From the NCBI RefSeq assembly GCF_008001015.1, contig NZ_CP042862.1, positions 2,356,001-2,420,000 on the forward strand: 64,000 nucleotides of DNA, given 5' to 3'. A model generated the notes under the pieces. The model had not been told where the DNA came from, did not search any database, and was given only the letters and a program-made list of their open reading frames with translations. The stretch is from Serinicoccus profundi (lineage in GTDB: Bacteria; Actinomycetota; Actinomycetes; Actinomycetales; Dermatophilaceae). Below are positions 1 to 3,990 of the stretch, piece after piece; positions within the stretch are counted from its first letter, which is position 1; every line of letters begins with the position of its first letter. The position numbers and the translations under genes are program-made.

Positions 1-1121
1 CGCAGCATGCGCTCCAGCGCCTCGACCGGACCGTTGCCACCGGTGAGCCGGGTGGCGCGTCCGGTGAGGTCGTCGTAGGCGGAGGCGACGCGCACGATCC
101 GGGAGGCAACCGAGACGTCCCCCCGCTCCTCGGCCCGGTGGTGCGCGAGCCCGACGTCCGAGACGACCGAGGCCAGCCGCGAGAGCTCGGCGGTCCGGCC
201 CAGGATCGAGGAACCGGTCGAGGCGATCTGGCGCTGGTCGCGGGCCGAGATCTCCACCGTCGCACCGCCCGGGACCGGACGAGGTATGCCGACCTGACCG
301 ATGTCGTGCAGCAGGGCCGCCGCCTCGACGTCCGGCAGGTCGGCCGCCTCGACACCGAGGTCCCGCGCGATGGGCACGGCCAGCGCGGCCACGCGGGCGC
401 CATGGCCGGCGGCGGTGAGACCGGCCTCCTCGGGCAGCCGGGCCAGCGCGAAGAGCGTCTGCCGCTGGGCGAGCCGGGTCTCGCGCTGCCGACTCACGGC
501 CGGCTGGAGCACAAGCAAGGGCACGAGGAAGAGCACCAGGCTGATCGGGCCCAGGGCGGTGAGCGCCAGTGCGGTCACGACCGCCGTCGACGCGCCGGCG
601 AGGGCCACCGGCCCCTGGCGCCCGATCTCTCCGGCCAGGTTGGCCCAGATCTGGCCCTGCCCGCGAGCGGCGGCCCGGACGGCGCGCGGCACCCAGGGCA
701 CGGCCACGGCGACGACCGCGACGACGAGCAGGGCGAGGGCGATGAGCACCGTCTCGTCGCCGTGGTCCCAGATGCTCTCGATCAGGGTATCGCCACCGGG
801 TCCGGGCAGCCGCACGAGCAGGCCTGCGACGACGACCGAGGTGCCGAGACGCAGCATGTCCTTGGGCACCTGCCCCAGGCGCTGCCGCCACATCGCGACG
901 AGCAGGACCGCGGACGAGGCCAGCACCAGCGGGCCGAGGAGCCCGACCACGGACCCGTCGCTGCCCGGGCCGACCGGCCAGGCTGTCGCCATGGCCAGCG
1001 CCATCGCCGTCGCCTGGGACAACGGTGCCTCGCCACCCGGAGCCGCGGACCGTTGGCGCCAGGCCTCGCTGAGAAGCATCGTCAGCAGCCCCACGAGGGC
1101 CAGGGACCACGTGAGGCTCAT
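1..1121 (-). CDS. Membrane protein with degenerate HD-GYP domain (3' end outside window)
   Basis: The N-terminal part (about residues 1-210 of 373 visible) is a run of hydrophobic helices; the C-terminal part is an HD-type phosphohydrolase domain with LLHDIG near residue 271. The family hydrolyses cyclic di-GMP. The second signature is altered: where a canonical HD-GYP has HHExxDGxGYP, this protein reads HHRAEERG (near residue 327), so the GYP loop is missing, and it may be a sensor or an inactive paralogue. The start is the ATG at 1121. It lies 25 bp downstream of a second membrane HD-GYP gene and is probably co-transcribed with it. The C-terminus runs off base 1 of the window. The domain call is firm; catalytic activity is doubtful. 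Confidence 0.8.
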   Translation of the reverse strand, partial: MSLTWSLALVGLLTMLLSEAWRQRSAAPGGEAPLSQATAMALAMATAWPVGPGSDGSVVGLLGPLVLASSAVLLVAMWRQRLGQVPKDMLRLGTSVVVAGLLVRLPGPGGDTLIESIWDHGDETVLIALALLVVAVVAVAVPWVPRAVRAAARGQGQIWANLAGEIGRQGPVALAGASTAVVTALALTALGPISLVLFLVPLLVLQPAVSRQRETRLAQRQTLFALARLPEEAGLTAAGHGARVAALAVPIARDLGVEAADLPDVEAAALLHDIGQVGIPRPVPGGATVEISARDQRQIASTGSSILGRTAELSRLASVVSDVGLAHHRAEERGDVSVASRIVRVASAYDDLTGRATRLTGGNGPVEALERML

Positions 1122-1146
1122 GCGCCGGCACCCCCCGCCAGCCCGC

Positions 1147-2511
1147 TCATACGGTCTCCACGCTCTCCGGCTGCCACTCCGCGTAGGCGTCGATCACCGA
1201 GGGGTGGTCGTGGTCGGGCAACCGGGCCTGACGGGCGGCGACAGCCGCGCCGTTGGGTCGGCCCCGCCAGGCCTCCGGTGAGCGCCCGACGACGACCGTG
1301 AGGGCCCGGACCACCTGGGGGTCCAGGTGGCTCCCCGCCCTCTCCTGCAGCAGCGTTACGGCGTCGGCGGCATCCAGCTCCGGCGCGGAGGCTCCCGAGG
1401 TCAGGGCCTCGAAGGCATCGGCCACCGCGATGATCCGAGCAGCGAGCGGGATCTCCTCCCCGTGGAGCCCGGCCGGGTAGCCGCGCCCGTCCCACCGCTC
1501 GTGGTGGTGGGCGATCCCCGGGAGTGAGCCCTTGAGGAAGGCCAGGCCGGACAGGATGTTGGCACCCGCCTGGGGGTGGCCGATGAGGGCGGTGAGGTAG
1601 TCGACGTCGTCCGCCTGGGCCTCGGTGGGCAGCTCGGGCCGGACGACGACCATCCCGATGTCGTGCAGGAGCGCGGCATACCGCAGCTCCTCGGCGTCCC
1701 GCACACCCACGCCGAGCTCTCCCCCGAGGGCCTCGGCGAGGTCGGCCACCCGCGCACTGTGCCCCACGGAGGCGGGATCGGCCTCCTCAAGCGCGGCGAC
1801 GAAGGAGGTGACGGTCTCCCGATGCTCTCGCCGCGCCAGGGCCTCCCGACCGATCGCCCAGTGGGCGATGAGCAGCGGGCCGAGCACGAAGAGCGCCGAC
1901 CCGGGACCCAGACCGACCGGTCCCCAGAGCAGGACGAAGAGGAACCCGATGACGACGTGCGCGAGATAGCCCCAGCCGAGGCTGCGCAGGACCGTCCGCG
2001 CCACGGGCAGCACCCGGGTGCGCCGGGTCACCGCCGACACGAGACCGATGCAGAGGACGTTGACCGCGATCATCACCACGTAGGCGATGAGCAACGGGCC
2101 ACCGACCCGCAGCAGCAGCCCTCCGGGGCTCGCCGGCATGTCCTGTACGAGCACACCACCGGACAGGAGATAGACGAGCGAGCCGGCGGCTCCCATGGTC
2201 GCGGTCATCGCACCGTTGAAGACACGATTCTCCCACTTCTTGACCTGCAGATCGCTGAGGCTGGACAATCCTCCTGCGATGGTCGCCCCCATCGGCCCGG
2301 CGATCGGGATAGCGGCGGCTAGCACGACGGTGGTGACTGACACACTCCAGAGTCCAATCGCGCCTCCCTCCCGCAACTGCACCCCCACGGTGGCGAGCAC
2401 CAGGAGAAGGATCACCACCCTCAGGTCCGCCGCCGAGTGAGGAAGCAGCAGAGTCCCGATGCCGACCAGCCCACCGGCGCCGAGCGCGAGGATCCCGGCC
2501 AGCACCGCCAC
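1147..2511 (-). CDS. Seven-helix membrane HD-GYP protein, probable cyclic di-GMP phosphodiesterase
   Basis: A protein of about 454 residues. Roughly seven membrane helices fill residues 1-220, followed by an HD-GYP domain with HD at about 283-284 and an intact HHERWDGRGYP signature at 336-346, as expected of an active cyclic di-GMP hydrolase. The membrane half is presumably a sensor, but I do not recognise the sensor family. The start is uncertain: the frame stays open upstream, a GTG at 2511 lies just past a strong hairpin (2521-2555), and another in-frame GTG near 2586 overlaps the end of the small upstream peptide gene. Neither has a clear ribosome site. With the gene at 1-1121 it forms a tandem pair, and the peptide gene at 2574-2660 precedes both. 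Confidence 0.85.
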   Translation of the reverse strand: MAVLAGILALGAGGLVGIGTLLLPHSAADLRVVILLLVLATVGVQLREGGAIGLWSVSVTTVVLAAAIPIAGPMGATIAGGLSSLSDLQVKKWENRVFNGAMTATMGAAGSLVYLLSGGVLVQDMPASPGGLLLRVGGPLLIAYVVMIAVNVLCIGLVSAVTRRTRVLPVARTVLRSLGWGYLAHVVIGFLFVLLWGPVGLGPGSALFVLGPLLIAHWAIGREALARREHRETVTSFVAALEEADPASVGHSARVADLAEALGGELGVGVRDAEELRYAALLHDIGMVVVRPELPTEAQADDVDYLTALIGHPQAGANILSGLAFLKGSLPGIAHHHERWDGRGYPAGLHGEEIPLAARIIAVADAFEALTSGASAPELDAADAVTLLQERAGSHLDPQVVRALTVVVGRSPEAWRGRPNGAAVAARQARLPDHDHPSVIDAYAEWQPESVETV

Positions 2512-2520
2512 AGGCAGTGA

Positions 2521-2555
2521 CGAAGGGCGCGGATCGGTTCGATCCGCGCCCTTCG
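2521..2555 (-). terminator. Perfect 15-bp hairpin between peptide gene and HD-GYP gene
   Basis: The arms CGAAGGGCGCGGATC (2521-2535) and GATCCGCGCCCTTCG (2541-2555) are exact inverted repeats around a 5-base loop. No T-run follows. Lying directly after the peptide stop and before the HD-GYP gene, it could act as an intrinsic terminator or attenuator giving much peptide and little receptor mRNA, or as a processing/stabilising element. Confidence 0.7.
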
Positions 2556-2573
2556 ATGAGTGAGTGGGTCGGC

Positions 2574-2660
2574 TCAGCCGTTCCACAGAACGACGTCGAT
2601 GAAGCCGATCAGGCCGCTGAAGAAACCGGAGCCGAGCACGGCGGTGATGAACTGCAACAT
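2574..2660 (-). CDS. 28-residue hydrophobic peptide upstream of membrane HD-GYP genes
   Basis: ATG at 2660, preceded at good spacing by the strong ribosome site GGAAGGAC; stop at 2574. The 28-residue product begins MLQFITAVLG, continues through glycine/serine-rich SGFFSGLIG and ends FIDVVLWNG. It is almost entirely hydrophobic, with one Asp and no Lys or Arg, so it is likely to sit in or cross the membrane. There is no leader, lipobox or Cys. The 5' region is unusually AT-rich for this genome and holds an 18-bp palindrome. Its place ahead of two membrane HD-domain proteins suggests a signal, modulator or subunit for them; a leaderless bacteriocin-like, modulin-like or type I toxin-like peptide is also possible. 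The reading frame and ribosome site are seen; the function is inference. Confidence 0.6.
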   Translation of the reverse strand: MLQFITAVLGSGFFSGLIGFIDVVLWNG

Positions 2661-2724
2661 GATAATGTCCTTCCGTCGATGACGCTCCGTGGCGGGAGGA
2701 GCGTGTGCCGGGGAGACGTCCGGC

Positions 2725-2742
2725 GTGGCACAAATGTGCCAC
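2725..2742. promoter_or_regulatory. 18-bp palindrome, candidate operator
   Basis: GTGGCACAAATGTGCCAC is a palindrome with 8-bp arms around a central AA, lying 65-82 bases upstream of the peptide start at 2660. It is symmetrical enough for a dimeric repressor or activator, but I cannot name the protein. A role as an RNA hairpin in the leader is the alternative. Confidence 0.45.
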
Positions 2743-2809
2743 AGGTCACTGCCCCGTCCGTACTCGGGGTGCCCAAAAATGCAAAACTTGAACAAACCTT
2801 TACCATTTG

Positions 2810-2825
2810 CGTGACGTGGGTCACA
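2810..2825 (-). promoter_or_regulatory. CRP/GlxR-like site in the divergent intergenic region
   Basis: The minus strand reads TGTGACCCACGTCACG, which matches the actinobacterial CRP/GlxR pattern TGTGA-N6-TCACA except for the last base. It lies between the minus-strand peptide/HD-GYP genes and the plus-strand bL37 gene, beside an AT-rich tract (about 2773-2810). It could control either side. Confidence 0.35.
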
Positions 2826-2890
2826 TGACGCTGGCTCCGGACCGCTGTGGGATGATGGGCCAGGAAAGCCATCGAGCCCCGGAGGACGAC

Positions 2891-2965
2891 ATGAGCAAGC
2901 GAGCACGCAAGCGTCGCGACCGCAAGAAGAAGGCCGCCAACCACGGCCGCAAGCCCAACGCCTGA
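2891..2965 (+). CDS. 50S ribosomal protein bL37 (AURKAIP1/COX24-type), 24 residues
   Basis: An ATG preceded by GGAGGAC encodes 24 residues, starting MSKRARKRRDRKKKAANHG and ending RKPNA. The pattern (very basic, ending in NHG-[RK]-[RK]-PN) is that of the tiny actinobacterial large-subunit protein bL37 known from mycobacterial ribosomes; about half the residues are Lys or Arg. A clean terminator follows at 2981-3012, so this is a monocistronic gene. Genes this short are routinely skipped by gene callers. Confidence 0.9.
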   Translation: MSKRARKRRDRKKKAANHGRKPNA

Positions 2966-2980
2966 CCCCAGCACCACCGA

Positions 2981-3012
2981 GAAAGGCCGACCGGAGGACC
3001 GGTCGGCCTTTC
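2981..3012 (+). terminator. Intrinsic terminator of bL37 gene
   Basis: The 14-bp arms GAAAGGCCGACCGG and CCGGTCGGCCTTTC flank the 4-base loop AGGA, ending in a short TTTCGT run. It lies 15 bases past the bL37 stop and faces the end of rsrA, so it may stop transcription from both sides. Confidence 0.85.
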
Positions 3013-3043
3013 GTCGTCGTACGGCGTCGAATGGTGGCCGGGA

Positions 3044-3337
3044 TCAGCCCTCGGTGCGCCGGACCACCGTGACGTGCGTGCTCGTGATCCGCGTGAGGAT
3101 CTGGCTGCGCAGCCCCTCGGGGGCGCTCTGCCGGGCACAGGCCCGACGCACGAGGGCCTTGAGCAGCAGGTCCCGGTCGTACTCCGCCAGGCAGGACCCG
3201 CACTCGTCGAGGTGGGCCTGGATGCGCGCCTTGTCGACCGGCTCGGTCTCGTTGTCGACGAACTCGAACAACCGGAGCAGCACGCTCGCGCAGTCGACCG
3301 ACGCCTCTGCGTTGCTCCCCCGCAGGTCGCGCCCCAT
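3044..3337 (-). CDS. rsrA: Zinc anti-sigma factor RsrA (redox-sensing)
   Basis: About 97 residues with the ZAS motif HLDECGSC: His and two Cys that, with an upstream Cys (in VDCASVL), bind zinc. In this family thiol oxidation releases zinc and frees the partner sigma factor. The gene overlaps the end of sigR. ATG 3337 has GGGAGGAG at proper spacing; a GTG three bases upstream is too close to that site. Translational coupling with sigR keeps sigma and anti-sigma near stoichiometric. A Cys after CARQS near the C-terminal third may also take part. Confidence 0.9.
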   Translation of the reverse strand: MGRDLRGSNAEASVDCASVLLRLFEFVDNETEPVDKARIQAHLDECGSCLAEYDRDLLLKALVRRACARQSAPEGLRSQILTRITSTHVTVVRRTEG

Positions 3338-3990
3338 CACGACTCCTCCCCCGCTCGCACGAAGCCACGCTCGGCGGCGTAGTCGGTGAGCAGCTCACGC
3401 AACTGCTTGCGTCCCCGGTGGAGCCGGGACATGACGGTCCCGATCGGGGTGTCCATGATGTCGGCGATCTCCTTGTAGGAGAAGCCCTCGACATCGGCGA
3501 GGTAGACCGCCATCCGGAAGTCCTCCCCGATCGAGGCCAGGGCACGCGTCACGTCGCTGTCCGGAAGGTGGTCCAGCGCCTCGGCCTCGGCGGACCGCAG
3601 CCCGGAGGAGGAGTGCGAGGCGGCCCGGGCCAGCTGGTAGTCCTCGACCTCGGCAGCGTCCGACTCCAACGGCTGCCGCTGCTTCTTGCGGTAGATGTTG
3701 ATGTAGGAGTTGGTGAGGATGCGGTACATCCAGGCGCGCAGGTTGGTCCCCGGGCGGTACTGGTGGAACGCGGCGAACGCCTTGGCGTAGGTCTCCTGGA
3801 CGAGATCCTCGGCGTCGGTCGGGTTGCGGGTCGTGCGGAGCGCGGCGCTGTACATCTGGTCCAGCAGCGGCATCGCCTCGCGCTCGAAGCGCGCGGCACG
3901 CTCCTGCGGGGACTCGCTCGCGACATCGACGCTCGCGTCGGCGGCTGCCTGGGCGTCGATCTCCTCGACGGCCGGTTGGTCAGTAGTCAT
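3337..3990 (-). CDS. sigR: ECF sigma factor SigR/SigH (thiol-oxidative stress)
   Basis: A 217-residue group IV sigma factor. Region 2 includes [17 protein letters not shown] and [19 protein letters not shown]; region 4 includes [28 protein letters not shown] split across its helix-turn-helix. It matches actinobacterial SigR/SigH, which controls thioredoxin, mycothiol and protease genes and is held by RsrA, encoded immediately after. ATG 3990 has GGAGGG directly upstream. A second, longer start (GTG 4071) also has a strong ribosome site; see the N-terminal extension and promoter entries, which suggest a stress-specific isoform and autoregulation. Confidence 0.93.

Follow-up and report, generated by a model that had tools for sequence, protein, structure and literature searches.

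The closest described system to the locus analysed here is the HdgA/HdgB pair of Streptomyces (vnz24090/vnz24095), an HD-GYP protein with six transmembrane segments and a second six-segment protein with a degenerate HD-GYP domain. According to the accessible parts of the published work, both are membrane-bound and very likely encoded in one operon, and deleting them had no effect on standard medium, presumably, in the authors' view, for want of activating signals; the activating signal is given as unknown (PMC6205966, PMC13232838). The same architecture, a membrane HD-GYP protein followed by a membrane protein with a degenerate HD domain, is found in Serinicoccus profundi, in a window of 64,000 nucleotides (contig NZ_CP042862.1, positions 2,356,001 to 2,420,000), where the two genes, here called HD1 and HD2, are preceded by a short open reading frame (ORF) for a Trp-containing peptide. 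A peptide of this kind is a candidate signal for the relatives of HdgA/HdgB.

In the RRNPPA systems of Bacillota (Phr, SHP, ComS/XIP and LCP) a small precursor gene lies beside the receptor gene, and some Bacillota propeptides hold several pheromone copies, as stated in the accessible parts of two sources (PMC10075063; PMC11343458). The likeness to our locus lies in the linkage of a small precursor gene to the gene of a putative receptor, HD1; RRNPPA receptors are cytoplasmic in the excerpts available, whereas the partner here is an S-component-like membrane domain on an HD-GYP protein. No cytoplasmic tetratricopeptide-repeat receptor of the RRNPPA type was found among the adjacent genes (the rest of the genome was not searched), HD1 and HD2 giving only HD families in Pfam. 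In Agr/AgrD and other peptide-histidine kinase systems, an amphipathic or Sec-led precursor is paired with a membrane receptor. These systems differ from ours in that the genes read next to the module include no AgrB-like protease or histidine kinase, and in that Cys is found in only 6 of the 120 precursors curated below. By title or abstract, no paper describing such a peptide/HD-GYP pair was found, in a search with preprints and most subscription journals outside its scope; the accessible literature on Micrococcus competence yielded no link to an HD protein or peptide, and the accessible text of a 2022 review of cyclic di-GMP (c-di-GMP) inputs uses "peptide" once and "pheromone" never (PMC8846402).

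Taken together, the locus suggests an undescribed mode of bacterial cell-cell communication. We propose, with a probability of about three in four, that the product of the ORF is a precursor from which a short, secreted Trp signal peptide is cut; this peptide would be bound by the membrane domain of HD1 and switch its HD-GYP domain together with HD2. In the window species the product would be exported by means of its hydrophobic N-terminus and processed to a C-terminal Trp-containing peptide, the presumed active part being about IDVVLWNG. Outside the cell, the mature peptide would bind the seven-helix membrane domain of HD1, and binding would alter the state of the cytoplasmic HD-GYP domain jointly with the degenerate partner HD2, the direction of this effect being part of the proposal. 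The support, all of it drawn from sequence, comprises a conserved peptide gene with a Trp core, the repeats and Sec-like signals of relatives, the HD1-HD2 linkage, the covariation of peptide and receptor domain, the hairpin and the promoter elements. If the proposal is true, peptide signalling would gain a class of receptor, a group of actinobacteria would have a large, diverse set of peptide signals, and there would be an example of an HD-GYP protein outliving c-di-GMP.

The peptide gene and its relatives

The short ORF with a strong ribosome site reported in a preliminary description of this DNA is present with both elements (Table 1), and it has a single match within the source genome (one contig, 3.48 Mb). 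HD1 was detected in 29 of 31 same-genus genomes, the source genome counted; the exceptions are G019, with no match, and G005, with a weak match only, of HD2 type, while the match is split in two pieces in G003, G004 and G009. The preliminary description had staked its case on the frame being kept in relatives that keep the HD pair, and the ORF is indeed in place in all 29 genomes with HD1 (27 loci plus G020 and G009): the peptide gene is real, conserved and tied to the membrane HD pair. The 27 ORFs were chosen by ribosome site and place, not by Trp, and Trp is invariant among the 14 distinct 28-codon forms. The same-genus peptides are 24-32 residues long and carry Trp close to the C-terminus, which is SWED or WNG in 20 of 29 cases, one of the 20 with three extra residues. 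Variability by codon position is.448/.225/.362, position 2 being the lowest. A search for family models of the peptide found nothing above cut-off in Pfam or NCBIfam.

Two observations speak against our proposal. The window peptide has neither a Sec-like signal nor repeats, its status as a precursor resting on the relatives. In addition, the ratio of nonsynonymous to synonymous polymorphism (pN/pS) does not favour the coding frame: it is 0.86 in frame vs 0.58 and 1.70 in the shifted frames, in a test confounded by the constraint on GC content at third codon positions.

Beyond the genus, the model of the HD1 membrane domain (A2) matches 166 of the 186 family genomes; in a sample of the order it matches 33 of 396, and 29 of these 33 belong to the same family. 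From the 170 HD1-positive genomes (166 of the family and 4 of other families), 121 loci, hand-chosen to span genera, were read. A Trp-bearing short ORF lies upstream in 91 of the 92 HD1 loci inspected outside the genus (8 outgroup loci and 84 more), L094 being the sole locus among the 121 with no precursor; all eight outgroup loci have a candidate, although it is less clear in L053 and lacks a clear Shine-Dalgarno sequence (SD) in L054. An automatic rule (SD, 13-80 residues, Trp among the 14 C-terminal residues, about 330 nt upstream) was satisfied by 73 of the 84 loci, whereas the reverse strand gave 9 and dinucleotide shuffles an expectation of 6.1; this rule, like that of the 31-locus test below, was fixed after the ORFs had been viewed, and the controls share the same rules. 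Ten further precursors were missed by it (e.g., NVDWA x10), some having a weak SD or an unusual start. As for the HD1-negative genomes, the divergent landmark gene of ribosomal protein bL37 was found in 16 of 22, and a 700-nt scan of these loci gave Trp-ending ORFs in 8 of 16, with starts 327-588 nt off and none precursor-like. HD1 is absent from five genomes of one genus (G062-G066, genus g30) of the same family as the source.

The 120 curated precursors (29 + 8 + 83) were each located in their own locus. Their start codons were hand-chosen, and no clear SD was seen for L155 (read from CTG), L156, L121, L123, L136, L159 and L054. Outside the genus Trp was the selection criterion, so that its presence in 120 of 120 holds there by construction. 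WxW occurs in 64 precursors. In 21 of them a Trp unit is repeated in tandem, in two to ten copies (SVLTWRP x4, YHNWEPK x5, GYTWQG x4, NIDWA x6 and NVDWA x10), and 20 carry a Sec-like signal pattern, as scored by a custom regular expression and not by SignalP. Others have only 13-19 residues and lack a hydrophobic segment, for instance MTAARCWWWTPSF. Trp repeats behind a signal sequence fit a peptide excised from a precursor, and neither a leader peptide nor a membrane subunit; because of these features of the relatives, we read the window ORF as a precursor rather than as a 28-residue ligand. The earlier reading had overlooked the Trp core, as well as the repeats and Sec-like signals.

Alternatively, the peptide could remain membrane-embedded, acting on HD1/HD2 as a modulator or small subunit, and carry no intercellular signal. 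The ORFs of the genus and of other phyla, with their hydrophobic stretch of 20-32 residues and short polar or aromatic tail, agree with such a role, as does the covariation with the HD1 membrane domain described below; however, the Sec-like signals, the tandem repetition of a Trp unit of 4-7 residues and the existence of precursors devoid of any hydrophobic segment make it unlikely. The short, Trp-rich precursors with repeated cores are also reminiscent of a ribosomally synthesized and post-translationally modified peptide or a bacteriocin that merely adjoins HD1. This possibility appears very improbable, since the gene after HD2 differs among the four lineages inspected and no peptide-modifying enzyme was seen beside the module in them. 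In two genomes of one genus (G140, locus L158, and G142, locus L160) the interval from bL37 to HD1 holds several peptide genes in tandem, their cores almost identical (VSIWGWGG; AWSWGPQS), which gives the impression of a signal gene in the course of multiplication.

The same membrane domain is found on HD-GYP proteins of Bacillota, Atribacteria, Symbiobacterium and other actinobacterial classes. Just upstream of it, a hydrophobic ORF of 20-30 residues with an aromatic tail (e.g., AGGAGIRW, GGGAGWRW or AGGASVQWGW) was present in 21 of 31 deep loci, the reverse strand giving 0 of 31 and shuffles an expected 0.35. The 31 loci consist of 16 named loci and 15 of 27 others; L192, L195, L199, L201, L203, L206, L209, L210, L213, L215, L216 and L218 were left unscored, L209, L210 and L218 nonetheless showing a hydrophobic aromatic-tailed peptide. 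The same peptide type without the aromatic tail in L198, L212, L217 and L238 was scored as a miss. The named scan also covered 76 other loci: Trp stands within the last six residues of an ORF in 12 of the 30 that have the domain vs 3 of the 43 that lack it, and three loci were too short. Ten Streptomyces-type loci also have the HD1 membrane domain and, unlike the HD1 loci here, no Trp ORF was seen upstream of it; in two of them, an RsrA-like C-terminus lies just upstream, as judged by eye. In two actinobacterial metagenome-assembled genomes (L276 and L279), a second possible peptide start, or a second copy, is seen upstream of HD1.

Could Trp-ending short frames simply arise by chance from GC-rich intergenic DNA? 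Such DNA readily leaves frames open, and the pN/pS result is compatible with this explanation; on the other hand, the reverse-strand and shuffle controls of the 84-locus and 31-locus tests already contradict it, as do the repeats and Sec-like signals, and we give it practically no weight.

The HD1 membrane domain and its output

The two membrane HD-GYP genes of the preliminary description are both HD proteins by Pfam, but the HD-GYP assignment holds for HD1 only. An HD2-like ORF was found in 96 of 98 loci searched (from 95 genomes), ORFs with an HHE motif being excluded from this search. In a separate list of HD2-like ORFs, none has HHE..DG.GY; therefore, HD1 alone is regarded as a true HD-GYP protein. 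It has both the HD and the GYP motif, and what we take to be the metal-ligand positions are kept. Its seven-helix membrane domain probably adopts the fold of the S-components of energy-coupling factor (ECF) transporters. Identity with FolT, RibU and ThiT is 9-15%, and the HD1 domain differs from these ECF S-components in being fused to a signalling enzyme; a PDB sequence search with HD1 gave matches to the HD part only.

Peptide similarity follows the HD1 membrane domain after correction for the HD domain of HD1, HD2, SigR or RsrA (56 loci of alignment A4; 48 for SigR, 49 for RsrA and 55 for HD2). Among the roles first offered for the peptide (ligand, modulator or small subunit), that of a ligand is supported.

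The GGDEF search of the complete source genome gave no match, the same search being positive in 8 of 14 control genomes, and the lysine of HDIGK is replaced in the source HD1 (HDIGM). On these two grounds c-di-GMP hydrolysis is unlikely as an output in the source organism, and the c-di-GMP signalling initially assumed for it is not supported. Streptomyces differs in this respect, having c-di-GMP according to the accessible parts of the HdgA/HdgB work (PMC6205966, PMC13232838). The lysine is found in 0 of 11 same-genus rows of the alignment, in 11 of the 45 remaining order rows (one same-genus) and in 15 of 16 rows of other lineages. A GGDEF match is present in 14 of 56 module-bearing genomes; the other 42 suggest that the receptor was retained but rewired away from c-di-GMP. 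GGDEF accompanies the lysine in 8 of 11 genomes vs 6 of 45 without it (p 2.4e-4, uncorrected for phylogeny), while a metal-ligand position is lost in 15 of 42 GGDEF-less genomes, which keep the peptide, vs 3 of 14 GGDEF genomes, a difference that is not significant (p 0.51). Probably, the ancestral output was c-di-GMP hydrolysis. The output here should involve either a different nucleotide or contact with a protein, be it HD2 or some other partner; cyclic di-AMP (c-di-AMP) is one possible candidate, since a domain for its synthesis (DAC) was found in the source genome. In genus g30, two genomes searched for GGDEF carry 16 and 18.

Less firmly than for the window locus itself, yet on balance, we favour the view that the module belongs to an undescribed class of peptide signalling spread over several phyla, in which a secreted aromatic-tailed peptide, often multi-copy, would be sensed by an S-component-like domain on an HD-GYP protein, with HD1 and HD2 together forming the sensor and, in the family of the source organism, the receptor rewired off c-di-GMP.

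Regulatory elements and neighbouring genes

Table 1. Features of the peptide/HD1/HD2 locus (window coordinates).
Feature	Position	Strand	Remarks
Peptide ORF, 28 codons, putative Trp-peptide precursor	2574..2660	-	ATG at 2660, TGA at 2574; 28-residue product MLQFITAVLGSGFFSGLIGFIDVVLWNG
Ribosome-binding site GGAAGGA	2668..2674	-	AAGGA/GAGGA-type counterpart at the same position in 27 same-genus loci
HD1, S-component-like membrane domain and HD-GYP domain	1147..2586	-	Pfam HD; start GTG 2586 (overlaps peptide gene) or GTG 2511
HD2, membrane protein whose HD domain is degenerate	1..1121	-	extends about 106 nt past window start
Hairpin, 16 bp, 3-nt loop, terminator- or attenuator-like, no T-run	2521..2555	-	begins 19 nt past peptide stop
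Extended -10-like element TGTGGCACATT, putative role	2733..2743	-	comparable TG box aligned in relatives
Palindrome, 18 bp, 8-bp arms	2725..2742		overlaps -10-like element
Tandem motif GGTAAAGGTTTGTTCAAG, 11-bp repeat	2787..2804	-	putative activator site of peptide promoter
CRP/GlxR-like candidate site TGTGACCCACGTCAC	2811..2825		between divergent bL37 and peptide promoters
Ribosomal protein bL37, 24 residues	2891..2965	+	divergent landmark; NCBIfam NF047428
RsrA-like anti-sigma factor (zf-HC2)	3044..3340	-	landmark; Pfam
SigR-like sigma factor	3337..3990	-	landmark; Pfam

The hairpin described after the peptide stop exists and is a little longer than claimed (16 bp instead of 15 bp). A hairpin with a score of at least 10 is present in 23 of 27 same-genus loci vs 12 of 540 shuffles, its sequence varying while the hairpin is retained. 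The reading frame of HD1 continues uninterrupted past the peptide stop (offset 2) in 16 of the 27 loci, so that the two genes could be coupled in translation. We also considered a fusion of the peptide to HD1 by frameshifting; since other relatives have their own HD1 start past the stop, we instead read the junction as a possible stop-start overlap. The hairpin and the open frame would equally suit a leader peptide, whose translation would govern hairpin read-through into HD1 by attenuation or stalling. However, stalling has no use for repeats or Sec-like signals, and the peptides are strongly divergent yet follow the HD1 membrane domain; a leader is thus highly unlikely, and we retain the secreted precursor. 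An Rfam scan of positions 2300-3100 gave just two matches, both far under their gathering scores.

The promoter region of the peptide gene contains a GTAAA-led tandem motif (best form GGTAAAGACTTGTTCAAG), which is aligned in all 27 same-genus loci 135-158 nt before the start. It scores at least 12/14 in 18 of these 27 loci vs 1 of 810 shuffles; in other genera just 7 loci out of 84 reach this score (vs 7 of 2520 shuffles). With up to one mismatch allowed to a 16-base pattern, the copy in the window is the sole match of the source genome, so that a regulon search with this motif returned one site and no regulon there; matches occur in 9 of 11 genomes, of which five show no sites besides this locus type, or just single additional ones. 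Across the 27 same-genus loci compared, a TG-led -10-like box and the ribosome site can likewise be aligned. The 18-bp palindrome reported earlier is present, but a role for it as such is not supported: relatives keep only the part of it inside this TG box, and its symmetry is lost. Visual inspection of the alignment shows the candidate site, which we take to be CRP/GlxR-like, in only part of the genus.

Beyond bL37 lie the two genes that we take to encode RsrA-like and SigR-like proteins. The gene after HD2 varies: tsaB and then rimI follow here, and malic enzyme in G192. In two other families, a gene for an ATPase of the T2SSE family, presumably PilT-like, stands after HD2 (L187 in G057 and L190 in G036), and a link to pili is possible.
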